Shown: positions 1 through 18,462 of the stretch, piece by piece
Layout of the letters: each line of letters starts with the position of its first letter
Position numbering within the stretch: position 1 is the stretch's first letter
DNA from: a virus
Direction: 5' to 3' (one strand)
DNA length: 29,319 nucleotides
Virus record (IMG/VR): IMGVR_UViG_3300035698_015530
Coordinates: 1-29,319 of that record
The notes under the pieces: model-generated
Seen by the model: only the letters and a program-made list of their open reading frames with translations
Databases searched by the model: none
What the model was told of the DNA's origin: nothing
Program-made: the position numbers and the translations under genes

Positions 1-1088
1 TCACTAGAGAAATATCTAGCAAACTGGTAGAAAGGAACTTCACTTGTAGCTGAATTAACCAAGAACATCGTCGCCTTATGCATCAATCCAGCAATATCAG
101 ACTTCCCAACTCCTTTAAACACCAACTCCATTTTCTCTTCTGCTTCAAACAACAACACCTTTGCTGCTTCTAAATCATCACTAGTTAATGTCAAGTCATG
201 CTTGCCATGTGCTGCGGAGACTACCATAGATAGTTTCATTAGATGTGTTCGCCTGCGTCCCATATAGCCGTCGAACTTTGGATCATAGAAAGGTGGATTG
301 TCTTCTGCTTCATGACAATAGGTATCCCAAAGTGCTGCAAAGTTTTCAGTGAAACTAAATTCCCCAGAAAGTAAAGATACTTTTTCTAGATCGTGGATTA
401 GTAATTCACGTAGATCCTTTTCCTTATTACTTTGTACGGGGATAGTTACAAGTTTCCCTTTCTTTTCCTCGTAGATGAATATGATTCGAGAAGTTAATCC
501 ACCTCCTATTGATTCTATAGGTAGAGAACTTTGAATTAAGTCAGGGGTAGTGCCAGCAATTAGATTAACCCAAACTCCTATGATTTCTTCTTTCTTCCTT
601 GCAATAGTTTCATATGCCCACTTGCGATCACAGTCGTACCAGTCGCATAGGGCAGCCATTAGCTCGTTGTTATGGTAGCCTAGAAATACGGTGAATTCTT
701 TAGAGAATATTGTTAGGGAGGAGTGGTAAGTTTGGACACCTGTAGCCATGTCTACATCAGTTAAATTAGTATCTTTCAGGTGACGAATCAGCGCTTGAAG
801 TGATGTAGCTTGAGCAGACATCTTAATCGCAGGCAATTCATTTAGAATATCCAATCCAGGATTCATAGCAGTACCTTTGCCTGTAGCAGAAGGTCCTACT
901 AAAACGATATAGAGATTAGGGTAAAATGTTAGGGCAGTTCCCCACTTGATAGAACACTTCCTTTGCATCGCTGATGCTATACATGAAATTGCAGTCCATT
1001 TGCGAAATAAAAGTGGTGGTTCAGTGTTTTGTGTATATGTGAGAAAGGCATCAATCCAGTTAGGGAGTCTTCGTTCTAATTGATTCAT
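1..1088 (-). CDS. P-loop replication protein, DUF3987-like helicase-like (truncated at window edge)
   Basis: An open frame runs off the left edge. It starts at the ATG ending at 1088, inside the last codons of the polymerase gene (29-bp overlap), and about 362 codons are visible. The protein opens MNQLERRLPNWIDAF. At about residue 65 it has a Walker A-like loop, VGPSATGKGT, preceded by a hydrophobic strand (NLYIVL). Later segments include AGTTPDLIQSSLP and GGGLTSRIIFIYEE. This layout (FRKWTAISCIASAMQRK, then a P-loop, then a GG-L-SR segment) resembles phage and mobile-element DUF3987/YfjI-type proteins, thought to be primase-associated or replicative helicase-like ATPases. Coupling to DNA polymerase supports a replication role. 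The C-terminus lies outside the window. Family assignment is from remembered pattern, not a search. Confidence 0.75.
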   Translation of the reverse strand, partial: MNQLERRLPNWIDAFLTYTQNTEPPLLFRKWTAISCIASAMQRKCSIKWGTALTFYPNLYIVLVGPSATGKGTAMNPGLDILNELPAIKMSAQATSLQALIRHLKDTNLTDVDMATGVQTYHSSLTIFSKEFTVFLGYHNNELMAALCDWYDCDRKWAYETIARKKEEIIGVWVNLIAGTTPDLIQSSLPIESIGGGLTSRIIFIYEEKKGKLVTIPVQSNKEKDLRELLIHDLEKVSLLSGEFSFTENFAALWDTYCHEAEDNPPFYDPKFDGYMGRRRTHLMKLSMVVSAAHGKHDLTLTSDDLEAAKVLLFEAEEKMELVFKGVGKSDIAGLMHKATMFLVNSATSEVPFYQFARYFSS

Positions 1089-3564
1089 ATATGTCTTTCA
1101 ATTTCTCAGCTAGTATATTAGGATTAGATGGAATGTATTTACTTTTAAATTCAAGCATATCTTCTTTGCACATATTTAGACCAATTGCAAGATCAGCAGG
1201 CGTTTGAATTTCTGTGTCATTGTAAATTAGTGGTGTCTCTAGAGATGCTTTAATCTTCAATAACATCTCTGCATGTTGAATCCAAGGAGCTGATAAAGGA
1301 ATTTGAAATACTACAGAGTCATGCACTTGAGCAAGAAGCTCTATAGGTTTGAACAGATGTTGATTGTAATAGATGTGTTCAACCCCTTGTTCATTGATCT
1401 TATCAGCGCATGTAGATTGTGGCAGTTGAGCATAACCTTCACGATAGGTTGCTAGGCAAGCTGACTTAGGTACATTAGGATAGGAAGGGATAATAGGTCC
1501 AAGAAATAATCTATTGCGACCAAAGAGATTTGTAACTACTCTATTCTTCTTTAGCATTTGTTGGATCTTAATATGATAGCCGTTGCGAATCTGCGGATAA
1601 CCTCGGTGAATCTTTTCTATAATATGTTTAGCATCATTCTCAGGCATTTCATTCTTGAGTGAGAATGTTCTAAACCCAACATCATAGTTCGTAGCATGAT
1701 TACCTTTCTTTCCCCAGAAGCGTTCACTCTGTCTACCATCGCCTAGTGGTGATGAACCATCTTCTGCTGAAATCTCACCATATGGTTTGCCTAGGATAAT
1801 TGAAGCGGTTAAGCGATGTAGGTCTATTCCTTCTTCAAATGCTCTAATCTGCTCAATAACCCCTCCAACATAAGCGACAATTCTATTTTCAATCTGGGAT
1901 AAATCGAAAGAGTATCCAATGTATCCTTCATCAAACAGGAAGAACCTAAGGAGATCGTGCGGCCAGTTTTGTTGATTACCTCCAAGTCCAAAGATAGTTT
2001 TACCTGAGGAAAGTCTCCCAGTTTCAACTGTTCCAGGTTTCCAACTTGATCTGTATCTGCCATCTTTATCCACCTTTCCTATGTCTAGGTATCTAGAGTT
2101 TCTGGTTTCCAGCCCACGAATATCAAGCATGATTTGGGCTGCTTTATAGTCGCGTCGAGCAAGTCGCTTCATAGCATCGACGTCTGTAGTTGGTACATAA
2201 GCTCCGTGAGTGTTTCTTTTCTTATAAGGTTTGATTCTTAATTCATCGTAGAAATATCTCATCAGTTGTTGCGGTGAGTTGTGGTTGATCTTGTAGCCAA
2301 CTTCCTCATGCAATGCTTCAATGAAGATATCAAGTTTAGCTTGTTCCTTTTTCTTATATTTCAACATGCCAGCTACGTCAACTTTAATTCCTCTCTCACC
2401 CATGTAGATTAGAGGTTTAATGAGCTTCCGTTGACGCTCGTAAGTTTCGATGTTGTCTTGTTTTATTATTTCTTCCATCTGCCCTGGGTGTGCAGCAGCT
2501 GTTGCAATAGAATCCATTCCATTGTAAGTCCACCATTGATCCCAGGTGCCAATGCCACGTTTGATCCACTGCTTCCCATCAGCTTTGTAATAAGGAATGT
2601 CAGTGTGCATTGTAGTTACAAAGTCAAGACCTGCACCGAAGTCAGGGAAGGAAATCTTCTGTGCTATCTGAGTGCAGTGAAGTTCTCCTCTAGGAATGAT
2701 TCCGTATTTATGAAGCATGAATTGTGTATCAAAGATGAAATTAGCACCACGTTTTTGGATCTTTGGACTTTGAATTATCTTAGCAACCAACAGCATGATT
2801 TCATACTCTTGATCAACCGTGAAGTAATCACCTTGGCTGTAGCGGAATGGGATTGAACAGGCATTTGTACCTTCCCAAGCAAAGGCAATGCAATCTACTT
2901 CCTCATTAATAACTTCAATGTCAATGTCTATGGTTCGACCATGTGTGCCTAACTCATAGCAATGGTTTAAGATTGAAATTGCTTCAGCGAATGTTACTCT
3001 AATTTTTATATCTCTAGGTGTTGATTTGATTTCAGAGAATTGACTTTCTTTATTTGCAAGCATTAGATCAGAGACGATTAGAGGTTTGTTTAGGTAGTTG
3101 AATTTAGGAACCATAAATGTAGCAGGGTGGAAGGTAGGGATTACCTTTAGACCAGGGACAATGGTAGACTCGATTACAGATCCACGCCACTTGGTGATAC
3201 CTACACGATTTGTCAAGGCGATCAACGCTACATTGCCAAAAGCTACTACCGCATTGAGATTTAATTTAGATAGTTCTTGGCCTAGTTCTTTAATGTAGGT
3301 GTAACCATCCTGGGAAATTGTATAGTTGCCACCTTTCTTTATGTTGATGTACTTGACCAAAGGTGCATCGAGATCTTTGATTACATTGGTTAGGTATAGA
3401 GAATGTCGTAGGACTTTTGCCATCTGTAGACATTCATCTAAGCCATGACCTGCAGGTCCAACCCAAGGTTTGCCTTGGTGTATCTCATGCATCCCAGGTT
3501 GTTTACCTACACCTGCAAGTTTTGCAGTTAGGTTACCAGATGGTGGGACATAGGTTCGTTTCAT
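1060..3564 (-). CDS. Family A DNA polymerase with N-terminal uracil-DNA-glycosylase-like domain
   Basis: An 834-aa replicative polymerase with three domains. Residues 17-165 look like a family 4/5 uracil-DNA glycosylase: a PG-x-x-E-x-x-Q-G-K-P-W-V-G-P-A-G loop at 23-39 and an HPA motif at 146-148. The Fe-S cysteines typical of family 4 are absent, so glycosylase activity is doubtful. Residues 205-360 carry a DnaQ-like 3'-5' exonuclease: DIE at 215-217 (Exo I), NFIFD ending at D279 (Exo II) and YNGMD at 347-351 (Exo III). The C-terminal half is a Pol I-type polymerase: motif A FDLSQIENR with D554, motif B around 614-629 (RFWGKKGNHATNYDVG) and motif C VHDS at 747-750, with HDS in place of the usual HDE. 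The start overlaps the stop of the upstream 62-aa gene (ATGA), and the end overlaps the P-loop gene, so the three are probably translationally coupled. Similar UDG-polymerase fusions are annotated in some other phages. Confidence 0.96.
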   Translation of the reverse strand: MKRTYVPPSGNLTAKLAGVGKQPGMHEIHQGKPWVGPAGHGLDECLQMAKVLRHSLYLTNVIKDLDAPLVKYINIKKGGNYTISQDGYTYIKELGQELSKLNLNAVVAFGNVALIALTNRVGITKWRGSVIESTIVPGLKVIPTFHPATFMVPKFNYLNKPLIVSDLMLANKESQFSEIKSTPRDIKIRVTFAEAISILNHCYELGTHGRTIDIDIEVINEEVDCIAFAWEGTNACSIPFRYSQGDYFTVDQEYEIMLLVAKIIQSPKIQKRGANFIFDTQFMLHKYGIIPRGELHCTQIAQKISFPDFGAGLDFVTTMHTDIPYYKADGKQWIKRGIGTWDQWWTYNGMDSIATAAAHPGQMEEIIKQDNIETYERQRKLIKPLIYMGERGIKVDVAGMLKYKKKEQAKLDIFIEALHEEVGYKINHNSPQQLMRYFYDELRIKPYKKRNTHGAYVPTTDVDAMKRLARRDYKAAQIMLDIRGLETRNSRYLDIGKVDKDGRYRSSWKPGTVETGRLSSGKTIFGLGGNQQNWPHDLLRFFLFDEGYIGYSFDLSQIENRIVAYVGGVIEQIRAFEEGIDLHRLTASIILGKPYGEISAEDGSSPLGDGRQSERFWGKKGNHATNYDVGFRTFSLKNEMPENDAKHIIEKIHRGYPQIRNGYHIKIQQMLKKNRVVTNLFGRNRLFLGPIIPSYPNVPKSACLATYREGYAQLPQSTCADKINEQGVEHIYYNQHLFKPIELLAQVHDSVVFQIPLSAPWIQHAEMLLKIKASLETPLIYNDTEIQTPADLAIGLNMCKEDMLEFKSKYIPSNPNILAEKLKDIYESIRTKTP

Positions 3565-4077: not shown

Positions 4078-4146
4078 TCATTTGTTTACCTTTATAACAA
4101 ATAGTATAAAAGCTGTTATTGCTAATATAATAACTAATAATTCCAT
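4078..4146 (-). CDS. 22-aa single-helix membrane peptide
   Basis: A short frame encodes MELLVIILAITAFILFVIKV plus NK: one uninterrupted transmembrane helix with a lysine at its C-terminal end. Its ATG overlaps the stop of the ParB-methyltransferase gene (TAATG), with a GGGATGAAG purine stretch upstream, so it is positioned for translational coupling. Against chance: the sequence is entirely hydrophobic apart from the ends, and the gap holds nothing else. Function unknown. Phage peptides of this kind can act as small membrane modulators; that is inference. Confidence 0.55.
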   Translation of the reverse strand: MELLVIILAITAFILFVIKVNK

Positions 4147-5471
4147 TACTTCATCCCATGCAGTTTAATTAAAAAAGAATCTCTATAACCTTTACTCAGT
4201 TCAAACCCTACAGGACTCATACCTAGTTTATCCGCTGCGATTAGTCCATTGCCTGAACCTAGAAATGGAATCAAGACACGTGAACCAGGGAATGCAAAAG
4301 TATTGTAAATCTCTTGCATTAACTCTACTGGTCGTTCCGTAGGATGAGTCTTCTGTTGTGGTGGTACAGGTGGGAAACCATCGAAGTTGTTTGACCTGCC
4401 TGGTTTGTTGAGCGCAGGACGGCCTTTCCATGCATAGAAGAACATCTCGTAGGTGTTAGCCATATGCATCTCGGGTCGCTTAGATTGACCAGAGGGCTTT
4501 GTCCATATACCACACATTCTTGTTGTATTGAATCCTGCATTGATTATTCCTTTATATATGTCTTCAAACCAAGGTTCAGGAGCAAACCAGCAGATGATCC
4601 AAGAGTGTTCAGCCATAGCACGGTAACATTCTTTAAATGTTTTCTGCATGAATTTAATATAGTCACTTGTTGGTACCTCGTTGTAATCCTCTTGTACATA
4701 CCTAGACTCACCATCTGATTTCTTAGCATCGCTGCCCTTGCCTTTACCACCTATGTTGATAGCATAAGGTGGATCAATTTCAACCAAGTGCATGATGTTG
4801 TCAGGGATTTGCTTAACTCCTTTAAAAAAGTCACTAAGAATAAAACACTTTGCAAGTTGATTAAAAGCACTATTCTTATTAAGTTCAATCTTCTGTGCTA
4901 TTGTATCTTTAACCATTGCTTCACTCATCTTGTTTATCAATTTAGAAGCATCAGATTGTGTCTTGCATTTATCAAATAGTTCTGGAAATGCTTCGCGCGC
5001 TTCAGCTCGTTTGATAGCGGTGGAGACAGTACCTTTTGTTCGACCTATCTTTTCTGCAGTGTCACCTATACCCCATCCATCTTGGTTAGGACCAGGTGCT
5101 TTAACTCCATGAATTGATTTCTGTAATGTATCTGTTTCTCGAACTAAGTTATCATACTCCCAGTATTCAAAATCTTTACGGAAGAAATTTTCATCTAGTT
5201 CAATAACCTTCATTTCAAGCTCTGTTAGGTCACCATAGATACGTACAGGTATTGTTTCCACTTCATTTTTTTGCAGAACCATATAGCGACGTTCGCCTGC
5301 GAGTAGGAAGTATTTATCATTTTCAATCCTCTTCACAGCTAAAGGGGAGATTAATCCACTTTCTTTCATTGAAGATTCCATATCATTCAGATCACCCATT
5401 TCCTGCCTAGCACGTTCCCCTACCTCAATATCATCTAGTGCCACCATAGCCACTTCGCCTACGTTGATCAT
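4146..5471 (-). CDS. ParB-domain protein fused to N6-adenine DNA methyltransferase
   Basis: A 441-aa two-part protein. Residues 5-115 form a ParB N-terminal domain: LISPLAVKRI, the nucleotide-site motif GERR at 59-62, and ENFFRKDFEYWE at 94-105, matching the ParB EN-x-x-R box. Residues 134-158 (IGDTAEKIGRTKGTVSTAIK) form a helix-turn-helix like that of ParB/KorB. The C-terminal half is a beta-class methyltransferase: catalytic DPPY at 233-236, THPTERP at 375-381 and AdoMet site FLGSGNG at 403-409. The DPPY-before-FxGxG order and the DPPY residues point to N6-adenine methylation. The start has GGGAGGA upstream and follows the 67-aa gene at once. Such fusions are common in phages, usually read as protective methylation. 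The HTH makes a site-specific DNA-binding role plausible; see the dispersed palindrome. Confidence 0.93.
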   Translation of the reverse strand: MINVGEVAMVALDDIEVGERARQEMGDLNDMESSMKESGLISPLAVKRIENDKYFLLAGERRYMVLQKNEVETIPVRIYGDLTELEMKVIELDENFFRKDFEYWEYDNLVRETDTLQKSIHGVKAPGPNQDGWGIGDTAEKIGRTKGTVSTAIKRAEAREAFPELFDKCKTQSDASKLINKMSEAMVKDTIAQKIELNKNSAFNQLAKCFILSDFFKGVKQIPDNIMHLVEIDPPYAINIGGKGKGSDAKKSDGESRYVQEDYNEVPTSDYIKFMQKTFKECYRAMAEHSWIICWFAPEPWFEDIYKGIINAGFNTTRMCGIWTKPSGQSKRPEMHMANTYEMFFYAWKGRPALNKPGRSNNFDGFPPVPPQQKTHPTERPVELMQEIYNTFAFPGSRVLIPFLGSGNGLIAADKLGMSPVGFELSKGYRDSFLIKLHGMK

Positions 5472-5473
5472 AG

Positions 5474-5677
5474 TTATCCTCCCAACAGTTTTAATAAATT
5501 AGCTGCCTGTGCAGTAGATACTTTTGGAATAGCTTTTGCTTTTGCTTTCTTTGTCACAGATTTAGGTTTCTTGGTAGGGATTCGTCGGGACAGGCGAATT
5601 TGACGTAGATGTTCTATTGCTTCATCTTGAGACATATCGGTTAAGGCAGGGATGCCCAGGTCATTTAGGTTGGCCAT
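5474..5677 (-). CDS. Small Lys/Ala-rich hypothetical protein
   Basis: A 67-aa protein with an acidic N-terminus (MSQDEAIEHLRQIRLSRR), a basic linker rich in K, A and P (TKKPKSVTKKAKAKAIPK) and an amphipathic C-terminal helix (AQAANLLKLLGG). This looks like a small adaptor or DNA-contacting protein. Its stop codon lies inside the ribosome site of the ParB-methyltransferase gene, so the two are made together. No family is recognised with certainty. Confidence 0.8.
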   Translation of the reverse strand: MANLNDLGIPALTDMSQDEAIEHLRQIRLSRRIPTKKPKSVTKKAKAKAIPKVSTAQAANLLKLLGG

Positions 5678-5688
5678 TATGTTTTCCT

Positions 5689-5913
5689 TTAATCAGACAA
5701 TAATTTAAAGTTATGCTTTCTTTCTGAAGTACTTAGATGATTATATATAGCTTTTTGTACATTGTAGCTATTTCCTTTAAATTTTATCTCTATACGACTT
5801 AATACACCCTCTGATACCCATATAGAATTATTCTCTAATGACATAAAGTCTTTAATTATATGTATCATATGCTGTTCATGAATAATTTCTTTAATTGTAG
5901 TTTTCTTCATCAC
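5689..5913 (-). CDS. Hypothetical protein
   Basis: A 74-aa protein (MMKKTTIKEIIHEQHMIHII...) whose start overlaps the stop of the ribbon-helix-helix gene (ATGA). Predicted alternating helix and strand, mildly basic. No motif recognised. The coupling supports a real gene. Confidence 0.75.
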   Translation of the reverse strand: MMKKTTIKEIIHEQHMIHIIKDFMSLENNSIWVSEGVLSRIEIKFKGNSYNVQKAIYNHLSTSERKHNFKLLSD

Positions 5914-6152
5914 TTAGCCCTCTTCTCTGCTTGTGCCAAGGAAGGAATTATCTCTCTTGGCTTAGTTGATTTTTCCAACAAGATGCCAACTATAATCTGG
6001 CCATGTTCTTCAATTAAATCTAGAAGATCATCCAAGATTACACCAAATACTGTACGGCGAAGTCCATAAGTGTTCAATAGTTTATTAGCACGAGTTTGTT
6101 GTTCTTCTGTAATCTCAAATGATAGCCTAGGTTTGTAGTCGTCAACAGCCAT
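5910..6152 (-). CDS. Ribbon-helix-helix-like DNA-binding protein
   Basis: The frame can be read from 6206, but the start at 6152 (MAVDDYKPRLSFEIT) is preferred: it has GGAG seven bases upstream, and the longer N-terminus would lie within the HNH gene. The resulting 80-aa protein shows a strand (PRLSFEIT), helix A (EEQQTRANKLLNTYG) and helix B (RRTVFGVILDDLLDLIEEHG), the layout of a ribbon-helix-helix dimer, plus a basic tail. Such proteins bind short operator DNA as regulators. It is a candidate partner for one of the palindromic sites in this genome. Assigned from secondary-structure pattern only. Confidence 0.7.
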   Translation of the reverse strand: MAVDDYKPRLSFEITEEQQTRANKLLNTYGLRRTVFGVILDDLLDLIEEHGQIIVGILLEKSTKPREIIPSLAQAEKRAK

Positions 6153-6603
6153 TTTTGTCTCCAATACAGTTTGGTTTTTTGTATCCACTATATATATTAT
6201 ATACATATGATGCAGTTATACCAAATTTAGATGCTACATCTTTTTTCTTTGTACCTATTCTACACAATCTTTTTATTTCATTTATATCTCTATAAGTTAG
6301 TTTAGTTACTTTCCCACCTTGGTTATTAGAATTCCTATATGCTCTATCCATATTATTATCTGAATATGTACCACAGTAGAGGTGAGAAGGATTAACACAT
6401 ATTCTATTGTCACAATGGTGTAGTATTAATTTTCCTTTTGGAACATCTCTTTTTCTACTAAGTATCCATGATACTCTATGTGCTCCCAAAGTACCAAATC
6501 TACCATATCCTTTACCAGCTATTGCACCTTTCCAATTCCAACATTCACCAGATTGACCTACAATAACTTTATTCCAAAACCTTGTTTCATCTATCTTAAT
6601 CAT
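6142..6603 (-). CDS. HNH homing-type endonuclease with C-terminal HTH
   Basis: A 153-aa free-standing endonuclease. The HNH core is LHHCDNRICVNPSHLYCGT at 61-79, with H62/H63, N71 and H74 and paired cysteines C64 and C69. The typical NNMD segment follows. The N-terminus has the CWNWKG and GYGRFG motifs of the HNH_3 type. Residues 118-140 (KKKDVASKFGITASYVYNIY) form a resolvase-like helix-turn-helix for DNA recognition. It sits between the dCMP deaminase and RHH genes, overlaps the RHH start by 11 bp, and has GAGG upstream. Probably a selfish homing gene inserted into the operon. A second copy of the family lies at 14685-15221. Confidence 0.9.
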   Translation of the reverse strand: MIKIDETRFWNKVIVGQSGECWNWKGAIAGKGYGRFGTLGAHRVSWILSRKRDVPKGKLILHHCDNRICVNPSHLYCGTYSDNNMDRAYRNSNNQGGKVTKLTYRDINEIKRLCRIGTKKKDVASKFGITASYVYNIYSGYKKPNCIGDKNGC

Positions 6604-8273: not shown

Positions 8274-9117
8274 CTTCCATTCCTCCTAGTTTAGGTTTAT
8301 CTTCCCATCCAAGTTTTACCTTCTTCAACAACTCTTTAATATCAGGTTCCTCCACAGCACCTAACTTTCCATCACTTTTTAATCTCGATCTAGCAATATA
8401 CTGACCGAGGGAGTCGACTAGCATTTCACGAATAGGGCCATCCCTACCTTCGGATTTCTTCTTTATGACGTATAGTTCGTCAAATAGCAATGGTATAGTA
8501 ATTACTGCCTGTCCAGTTACATGCAGACGATGCCATACCTCTTTGCGTACAATTCCAGATGATGCATCTATTGATTTAACTTCTTCATGTTGGCGTAGAT
8601 GGCCAGTCAAGATGAAATCGCAAGGTAGATTCATTAACTTTCGAATGTTATTAACTATCTTAACCTTCTGCGGATTATAATCTCGGCGATGCATAGGTGT
8701 TTCACCAGCTCTGTTTTGTGATGCTAGTTGATTATTCATAACTGCATCACCAAAGGTTGTAAGGCCATCTATACATACAGTTCCAAACATATCATAGTAG
8801 TGAGTGTTAAGACGAATTTCAATATCTTTCTCCCACTGTGCAAATGCAGTAGGTTTAAATGGATCTTCTTTTTCATAGGAAGTGTCAACTATGATTTGGC
8901 CTGTAGGATTATTCTTACTGCGAATCCAAGGTTCTAGACACTTCGTTCCACCAGGATCAAATGAATCTATGTGGATTGGAAAGCGTGCGGTTCGAAGTAT
9001 GTAGGTTTTTCCAGAATTAGTTTCGCCTGTGATGATTGCGCTAAATCTCTTCTGCAAAGGATCACCGTTGTAGTAGTCAGTAACACGTTTCAGTTCTTTC
9101 ATTTTATCGTAGGGCAT
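8266..9117 (-). CDS. Sak4-like RecA-fold ATPase (AAA_24 type)
   Basis: A 283-aa ATPase. Walker A is GETNSGKT at 31-38, followed by the characteristic IDSFDPGG at 50-57. Walker B is TVCIDGL at 113-119 with DGLTTFGDA, and a LTGHLRQ sensor-like strand follows. This matches phage AAA_24/Sak4 proteins, RecA-core single-strand annealing and recombination ATPases used in phage replication and repair. The neighbours agree: a DUF669-like partner downstream and a PD-(D/E)XK nuclease upstream. AAAGGAGA precedes the start. Confidence 0.92.
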   Translation of the reverse strand: MPYDKMKELKRVTDYYNGDPLQKRFSAIITGETNSGKTYILRTARFPIHIDSFDPGGTKCLEPWIRSKNNPTGQIIVDTSYEKEDPFKPTAFAQWEKDIEIRLNTHYYDMFGTVCIDGLTTFGDAVMNNQLASQNRAGETPMHRRDYNPQKVKIVNNIRKLMNLPCDFILTGHLRQHEEVKSIDASSGIVRKEVWHRLHVTGQAVITIPLLFDELYVIKKKSEGRDGPIREMLVDSLGQYIARSRLKSDGKLGAVEEPDIKELLKKVKLGWEDKPKLGGMEDE

Positions 9118-11435: not shown

Positions 11436-11722
11436 AATATCAAGTTCCTTTCAATATAACTTCCATTTTTAAACAGAAGTAAATTCAAGGTGCCATGCTT
11501 TAATGCAAATACAGCACAGGCAATTGAGTTCATTACATTTAGAGAACATGGAACTATATAATCTTCTTTGGTAGAGTCCTTGAGAATCTCGTTGAACTTT
11601 CTATGCATGTTGTTAGTTGCATAGCGATTCATTGGACCTTCACTTAGGAAGATTATATCTCCATATGGTTCGGCTTCACTAAAGTCATGTGCACTTTTAT
11701 TAATAATGAATACTTTAGTCAT
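11432..11722 (-). CDS. Conserved phage hypothetical protein
   Basis: A 96-aa protein beginning MTKVFIINKSAHDFSEAEPY, with FLSEGPMNRYATNNMHRKF and a C-terminal SIACAVFALKHGTLNLLLF. This pattern looks familiar from other phage early regions, but I know no function for it. The alternating hydrophobic strands and conserved N/R/T segment suggest a folded nucleotide- or peptide-binding domain (inference). Coupled on both sides (ATGA downstream, 8-bp overlap upstream). Confidence 0.85.
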   Translation of the reverse strand: MTKVFIINKSAHDFSEAEPYGDIIFLSEGPMNRYATNNMHRKFNEILKDSTKEDYIVPCSLNVMNSIACAVFALKHGTLNLLLFKNGSYIERNLIL

Positions 11723-12119
11723 CTCCAGGCTCCTTTGATATATCAGATGCAGGGATAGTATTCTGCATAGATTTAATACTGGCTAAGATTCCATCAGGTG
11801 CAGATGATGTTTTCTCCTTCCGCATAGTATCACCTTTGCGTTTGTCATCTGTATGTGAGAATGGGTCTACTGGATTAACTTTAAGATCGTTTAATTTTTC
11901 AACGAACTTACCCTCAGCAAACTTTTCCTCAACAATAGATTCTGGTGGTCTGGGTTTTTCAATAGGTACAAAACCTTCCCTTTGTGATGGCTCTGCAATC
12001 TCCTCAGAACATTGATGAGGTTCTACAATGTCATAGATTTTACCTCTTATTGCTTTTCTAAGGAGAAGTAGTTCAGTTCCGCATTGGGCACAGTGTAGAT
12101 GTTTAGGCATCATCATCAC
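11715..12119 (-). CDS. Zinc-finger hypothetical protein, possibly two fused short genes
   Basis: A 134-aa protein with an N-terminal zinc-site candidate (HCAQCG...HQC, residues 9-37), a proline/glutamate-rich middle and an unrelated charged C-terminus. A palindrome copy (11884-11910) is translated within it as KLNDLK. Downstream of that lies an internal in-frame ATG at 11825 (MRKEKTSSAPDG) with its own AAAGGTGATACT ribosome site. The simplest reading is one protein; an alternative is that a separate 36-aa gene became joined in frame to the zinc-finger gene through the palindrome. The start is one of four consecutive ATGs. Confidence 0.75.
   Translation of the reverse strand: MMMMPKHLHCAQCGTELLLLRKAIRGKIYDIVEPHQCSEEIAEPSQREGFVPIEKPRPPESIVEEKFAEGKFVEKLNDLKVNPVDPFSHTDDKRKGDTMRKEKTSSAPDGILASIKSMQNTIPASDISKEPGDD
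11884..11910 (+). repeat. 27-bp dispersed palindrome, copy 4 (inside a coding region)
   Basis: Exact left arm AGATCGTTTAAT, free T, right arm TTTCAACGAACTTA. Unlike all other copies it lies wholly inside an open frame (11715-12119), 59 bases upstream of an internal ribosome site/ATG at 11825. Confidence 0.8.
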
Positions 12120-18435: not shown

Positions 18436-18462
18436 AGATCGTTTAATAATTAAACCAACTAT
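18436..18462 (+). repeat. 27-bp dispersed palindrome, copy 7
   Basis: Exact left arm AGATCGTTTAAT, free A, right arm ATTAAACCAACTAT: the best-conserved core of all copies. The stop codon of the 273-aa gene (18459-18461) lies at its edge. It is 76 bp upstream of the -35 box at 18354-18359. Confidence 0.88.

Follow-up and report, generated by a model that had tools for sequence, protein, structure and literature searches.

KorB of the IncP plasmids RK2 and R751 combines a ParB N-terminal domain with a helix-turn-helix (HTH) and acts at many dispersed sites, the OB operators, which are built on an odd, 13-bp palindromic core. The same architecture and the same layout recur in the locus described here: a ParB-methyltransferase fusion encoded in a 29,319-base phage record (this whole stretch of DNA is called the window), together with palindromes scattered over this phage and its relatives. 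The two systems nevertheless differ. The KorB operator reads TTTAGCSGCTAAA, whereas the phage palindromes are TTTAATNATTAAA-like and carry outer arms that extend them to 25 bp; the C-terminal dimerisation domain of KorB is missing from the fusion, which has a methyltransferase in its place; and KorB works with the ParA-type partner IncC, whereas no ParA partner was found for the fusion in 29 virus records. Nor did these records show the canonical ParABS arrangement, with a ParA gene alongside the ParB gene. Noc sites are also dispersed over the genome. The chromosomal ParB-parS and Noc-NBS systems resemble the fusion in that the same recognition-helix position decides the same base (Arg with G, Gln with A; PMC7383237), but they have even, 16-bp sites, serve partition or nucleoid occlusion and lack a methyltransferase.

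Fusions of a ParB-CTPase domain to an N6_N4 methyltransferase, the domain pair of the window protein, are common in phages and prophages and of unknown function, according to the available part of a survey (PMC12704722); that part reports no DNA sites, whereas cognate sites and specificity residues are identified here. In M.SsoII, too, a methyltransferase is fused to a distinct part of the protein that recognises a regulatory DNA site (PMC3978073, PMC6100179), but this C5 enzyme, whose regulatory region is N-terminal, controls its own restriction-modification system and has no ParB domain. The stoperators of mycobacteriophages are repressor sites distributed over the phage genome, as the palindromes are (PMC9283540), but they are asymmetric, are bound by a monomeric repressor and belong to temperate phages. 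A precedent for methylating only one's own DNA is DarB of phage P1, a methylase-helicase that protects phage DNA in cis (PMC5512222); it differs in working with an SF2 ATPase, in being part of the virion and in having neither a ParB domain nor dispersed sites. A temperate phage immunity repressor would be expected beside an integrase, and no PF00589 match was obtained in the 29 virus records. While the domain fusion has been described before, the literature searched contained no account of its site system.

Domains and motifs of the fusion

The fusion and its parts are located in the window as follows.

4146..5471, minus strand: ParB-methyltransferase fusion, 441 aa, proposed palindrome reader (ORF, Pfam, conservation, AlphaFold2 model)
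5187..5429, minus strand: ParB_N (ParB-CTPase fold) domain, residues 15-95 (Pfam PF02195, E 2e-11; Foldseek)
5286..5297, minus strand: GERR box, residues 59-62 (P motif, Box II; conservation, 43 relatives)
5178..5192, minus strand: ENxxR box, residues 94-98 (Box III, EN-F-F-R in the window; conservation, 43 relatives)
5064..5111, minus strand: pre-HTH loop, residues 121-136 (KAPGPxxGW), candidate outer-arm reader (correlation with half-site bases)
4989..5069, minus strand: ParB-type HTH, residues 135-161, with recognition helix 146-161 (AlphaFold2 model; co-variation)
5034..5036, minus strand: codon of residue 146 (Lys), equivalent to ParB R173 by motif alignment, GKSR / GRTK (column ranking; PMC7383237; KorB alignment)
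4179..4790, minus strand: beta-class DNA methyltransferase domain, residues 228-431 (Pfam PF01555, N6_N4_Mtase, E 1.3e-19; structural matches)
4764..4775, minus strand: DPPY catalytic motif, residues 233-236 (invariant, 43 relatives)

The GERR box, the EN-x-x-R box and the ParB-type HTH that the earlier note had picked out were all recovered, at residues 59-62, at residues 94-98 and in the AlphaFold2 model, with Pfam ParB_N covering the domain. The structure comparison of the ParB half that the same note had proposed gave a concordant answer: the model places an HTH formed by helix 135-142 and the recognition helix 146-161, and in Foldseek the N-terminal half comes structurally closest to ParB, Noc and Spo0J. 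Across 43 relatives, G59, R61, R62, E94 and N95 are invariant and E60 and R98 nearly so, and the ParB nucleotide boxes and methyltransferase motifs as a whole are invariant or nearly invariant. ParB_N with both boxes and the residue-to-base rule of the HTH are features of the ParB/Noc superfamily. In structure comparison, residues 201-441 resemble beta-class methyltransferases (Z about 20-23); M.MboIIA, M.BceJIV and CcrM are among the structural matches of the methyltransferase part (Z 22-23). The order of the motifs, DPPY and then FxGxG (FLGSG, residues 403-407), and the fold are those of beta-class N6-adenine methyltransferases; N4-cytosine enzymes share this fold. Both domains keep intact motifs.

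Palindromes in the window and in related phages

A 25-bp palindrome, approximately AGATCGTTTAATNATTAAACGATCT, is present in 11 copies in the window. These score 27-35 bits, whereas no other window position exceeds 8 bits and shuffled sequence reaches about 9 bits. The exact 13-bp core TTTAATNATTAAA is found once, at 18442-18454, the remaining copies differing from it at one position at least. The earlier note had likened the layout of this core to that of the KorB operator, a likeness that was confirmed on nine sites of plasmid R751.

3762..3786, no strand: palindrome, centre 3774, 26.9 bits
6613..6637, no strand: palindrome, centre 6625, 33.6 bits
7949..7973, no strand: palindrome, centre 7961, 33.9 bits
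11884..11908, no strand: palindrome, centre 11896, within the conserved gene 11715-12119 (not intergenic), 34.2 bits
14204..14228, no strand: palindrome, centre 14216, 30.6 bits
15662..15686, no strand: palindrome, centre 15674, 34.6 bits
18436..18460, no strand: palindrome, centre 18448 (exact 13-bp core), 30.4 bits
19715..19739, no strand: palindrome, centre 19727, 28.8 bits
20595..20619, no strand: palindrome, centre 20607, divergent region, 28.5 bits
21554..21578, no strand: palindrome, centre 21566, 29.9 bits
26467..26491, no strand: palindrome, centre 26479, 32.3 bits

A search of viral contigs returned 57 relatives of the fusion (45-72% identity), and an alignment search added further ones down to about 43% identity; a few are in metagenome-assembled genomes, and one lies in Desulfofustis phage LS06-2018-MD01. 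De novo motif search with shuffled controls revealed a palindrome family in nearly all of the approximately 87 fusion-bearing loci, 85 of which entered the final table. Length (25 bp) and register are constant, and the sequence is specific to each phage: cores include GTTTAAT, GTTCAAA, ATTAAAT, GATCnAA, nTCCAAA, GGTTAAA, GAATAAA, GATGATT and GTCCCAA, and outer arms follow AG(A/T)(T/C) or, in some loci, CT(A/T)TG, with AGATC, AGTCC, AGTTC, AGTTA and CTATG as variants. The top de novo motif in the window, L104, L105, L108 and L186 consisted of coding repeats and was set aside; for these loci the palindromes come from the following motif or were obtained with site models. L101, L103 and L105 (25% identity) yielded no palindrome family. 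Fusion-less fragments (L059, L061, L067 and L072 with palindromes, L154 and L168 with the polymerase) are uninformative on fusion loss, because they are fragments.

An RNA hairpin or terminator was rejected as the nature of the palindromes, since paired arms contain fewer G-U pairs (279 versus 341) and more mismatches (1468 versus 1295) than randomly paired half-sites. The two arms vary independently, and the upstream and downstream arms with respect to transcription are alike, slight biases aside. As the arms are not RNA-complementary, the palindrome is a DNA site. Among strong sites, the arms differ at half-site bases 3, 9 and 12 more than independent half-sites would (z 3.5-4.7), so that the sites seem to avoid perfect symmetry.

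Co-variation of the fusion and its sites

Across the 85 loci, residue 146, at the start of the recognition helix, follows base 7 of the half-site. Gln146 goes with A in 8/8 cases (1/77 among the others) and Arg or His146 with G in 8/8 (0/77 among the others), while the remaining residues go, all but one, with T. The exceptions are L089 (Ile with A) and L193 (His with T, from three sites only). Fisher tests gave 1.9e-10 and 2e-11 on rows that are related; a tree was therefore built without the HTH columns. On this tree the residue-146 class changes 10 times and base 7 changes 11 times, and independent pairs agree on the rule in 5/5 and 3/3 cases, each too small for significance alone but together 8/8 (two-sided sign test, p about 0.008). 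Three loci examined after the rule had been noticed fit it, L084 (Arg, G), L186 (His, G) and L191 (Lys, T), as do L087, L088, L090 and L092 (His, G), which are close to L086 and L091; L193 is the one failure among the loci examined at that stage.

A sliding-window, Mantel-type distance comparison between gene families could not distinguish the fusion above the noise and was replaced by a column test covering 2720 columns of 12 gene families from 68 non-redundant phages. For base 7, residue 146 came out on top (excess information 0.66, against 0.49 for the runner-up), as it did for base 6, and residue 145 ranked first for base 9. The association seen at base 2 is confounded by phylogeny. After correction for divergence, residues 145-160 track bases 7-12 and loop 121-136 tracks bases 1-6, the loop correlating with bases 1-3 at a partial correlation of 0.31 (0/300 permutations). 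L011, L039, L040 and L098, otherwise close relatives, combine an ST-type loop (ST..DA) with CT-type arms; L093 is an exception to this pairing.

The rule agrees with a recognition code described for ParB and Noc, in which position 173 makes contact with G1 of parS when it is Arg, as in ParB, and with A1 of NBS when it is Gln (R173 and Q173; PMC7383237). The GKSR173 motif of ParB aligns with G143-R144-T145-K146 of the fusion and, judging from the site layouts, the read base is nearly equidistant from the dyad (6 versus 6.5 bp). KorB, aligned directly, has Pro at the residue-146 position and T at the matching base, as do the Pro phages.

Natural loss of the fusion in one phage

Two conserved genes lie upstream of the fusion.

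5474..5677, minus strand: conserved 67-aa neighbour (56/58 loci; kept in L163)
5910..6206, minus strand: 98-aa ribbon-helix-helix-like neighbour, the main rival reader (56/58 loci; kept in L163)

L163, a record of 32.35 kb whose polymerase is 66% identical, is the single fusion-less case. It keeps the order of ligase, exonuclease, Sak4-like gene, 98-aa and 67-aa neighbours, polymerase and primase, but the 67-aa gene is followed by the polymerase with no fusion in between, and the fusion was not found elsewhere in that record. When L163 was scanned with 75 site models, 74 gave no site of at least 18 bits, where 13.6 would be expected. Since L163 has the neighbours and no palindromes, the neighbours alone do not maintain palindromes, as far as one case can tell. 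That the 98-aa and 67-aa genes persist there (8656-9109) after loss of the fusion indicates that they probably have a role of their own. A structure search found no useful fold match for the 98-aa protein. About half of the relatives have a gene of the NAD-dependent epimerase/dehydratase family directly upstream of the 98-aa one (L007, 8328-9506, and 28 other loci).

The window polymerase (1060-3564) is a family A DNA polymerase with an N-terminal domain of the uracil-DNA-glycosylase superfamily (residues 7-154) and a weak 3'-5' exonuclease match. The polymerase match spans about 3.4 kb instead of 2.5 kb in L024 (5867-9283), L160 (10001-13417) and L164 (4529-7963), pointing to an inserted element in the polymerase gene, for instance an intein or intron.

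Taken together, the fusion and its palindromes change together, so that the fusion almost certainly binds them: we hold it with high confidence to be a sequence-specific palindrome reader. Reading of the palindromes by the fusion, which the earlier note had inferred from motifs and layout, is supported by residue-level co-variation, by the loss in L163 and by the known ParB/Noc code. On this comparative evidence, fusion and palindromes belong together, and the residues that set the specificity are identified.

Placement of the sites

Six near-complete genomes carry 13-21 palindromes each. The Desulfofustis phage (OP947158) has 9 predicted sites, with centres at 256, 2258, 7695, 15481, 23066, 29977, 37120, 41288 and 42984. 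In the family the sites follow one another at intervals of roughly 2-4 kb. The gaps are more even than under random placement (mean CV 0.54 versus about 0.9; 0/4000 simulations). Among 517 strong family sites, 303 are intergenic and 64 lie at gene edges, whereas intergenic DNA makes up 4.9% of bases. Sites between co-directional genes stand a median of 18 bp ahead of the next start codon, and the convergent junction of the early and tail operons has a site within 30 bp in 26/31 loci; for the remaining five (L021, L023, L024, L025 and L046) the site lists place one no more than 60 bp away. Site density is higher near the divergent control region. Inside genes, sites number 0.284 per kb where the gene exceeds 3.5 kb versus 0.05-0.09 in genes of 0.6-3.5 kb, and 19/21 tail genes longer than 4 kb hold an interior site; genes below 600 bases, where gene calls are least sure, have 0.171 interior sites per kb. 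The calls are simple ORF choices, and single site locations may therefore be wrong.

No conserved flanking sequence or promoter element was detected beside the 327 sites between co-directional genes, and on this ground a promoter element was rejected as the explanation. Neither a match to a tyrosine integrase (PF00589) nor a ParA (AAA_31) above the cut-off was obtained in the 29 virus records, which are about 40-52 kb long and may in part be incomplete; this speaks against lysogeny control and partition.

Proposed mechanism and alternatives

We propose that a ParB-type dimer would put its two HTHs on the 13-bp core, with residue 146 reading base 7 of each half-site, residue 145 affecting base 9 and loop 121-136 probably touching the outer arms. 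A ParB clamp gated by CTP, or by another NTP, would load at the palindrome and then slide away over the phage DNA with the methyltransferase attached, acting in cis, so that coverage and methylation would fall on the phage genome and not on that of the host. Dimer binding, NTP gating, sliding and cis methylation are steps that we infer. Loading sites are the best reading because the sites span early and late operons, evenly, and enter genes where these are very long. Their positions follow spacing and not promoters, and this placement, including the sites at the convergent junction, favours clamp loading sites, or roadblocks, over promoter operators. Since all methyltransferase motifs are present, we regard cis methylation of phage DNA as the most likely reading, with KorB-like or stoperator-like roadblocks close behind. 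We give a probability of about 0.5 to the statement that the fusion reads the palindromes and that these are loading sites for a clamp carrying the methyltransferase in cis. Of its parts, a function that requires genome-wide spacing is probable, and delivery of the methyltransferase in cis falls somewhat short of even odds. The full picture, of apparently lytic phages in which a methyltransferase slides on its clamp from evenly placed palindromes and marks phage against host DNA, and in which the protein-site pair re-specifies repeatedly, is offered tentatively. Nucleotide use by the fusion is uncertain because, in the one survey, some ParB-methyltransferase fusions bind ATP and most of the ParB-fold proteins tested gave no nucleotide signal (PMC12704722). 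One ParB-methylase with nicking activity is cited in PMC5512222.

Genome-wide transcription control of the KorB or stoperator kind, in which the fusion would block or terminate RNA polymerase or silence promoters at a distance and the methyltransferase would tune this control or be a side activity, is a doubtful but serious contender. KorB acts in this way from dispersed sites (PMC11790492), and the predominance of intergenic and gene-edge sites suits such control too, as do their position just before start codons, their presence at the convergent junction and their density near the divergent control region. The missing promoter element at the 327 co-directional sites, the sites inside very long genes and the evener-than-chance spacing argue the other way; moreover, with no tyrosine integrase in the 29 records, a lysogeny repressor is not needed.

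A role in DNA organisation or packaging, with the clamp condensing, segregating or marking phage DNA through parS-like or NBS-like sites, appears unlikely. It would account for the even spacing and for the structural proximity of the N-terminal half to ParB, Noc and Spo0J, but no ParA was found above the cut-off in the 29 virus records, the methyltransferase replaces the C-terminal dimerisation domain of ParB, and KorB, for its part, failed to condense DNA in vitro (PMC11790492).

Still less is to be said for modification of an adenine in each palindrome, in GATC or elsewhere, as an epigenetic switch, which we consider improbable although the fusion appears, from co-variation, to read the site. 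The earlier note had placed a GATC in at least one arm of most copies; this stands for the window (9/11 copies) but fails for the family, where 132/517 strong sites (26%) have one. At this frequency GATC was rejected as the functional feature: it is a local feature of the window phage's arms, not a conserved one. Moreover, the specificity region of the methyltransferase co-varies weakly with the sites, at most 0.19 after divergence correction, and the methyltransferase may be unrelated to them. As a separate observation, GATC is rarer than the trinucleotide expectation (observed/expected 0.62-0.83) in the window, L004, L007, L009, L044, L104 and L100, perhaps owing to host restriction.

Finally, reading of the palindromes by another phage protein, above all the 98-aa neighbour (5910-6206), is very improbable: it is present in 56/58 loci and predicted to be helical after an extended N-terminal stretch, but the cores differ widely between phages and its conserved RFSFEI stretch does not vary with them, the recognition helix of the fusion ranks first for bases 6, 7 and 9 among the 2720 columns, and the gene is retained in palindrome-free L163.

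Significance

One family of ParB-methyltransferases now has DNA sites, specificity residues and a natural loss control, with which direct tests become simple. The approximately 85 co-evolved protein-site pairs constitute a natural experiment on how ParB/Noc proteins recognise their sites, and orthogonal ParB-site pairs can be drawn from them. Should the loading model be true, it would represent a new way for a virus to mark solely its own DNA.
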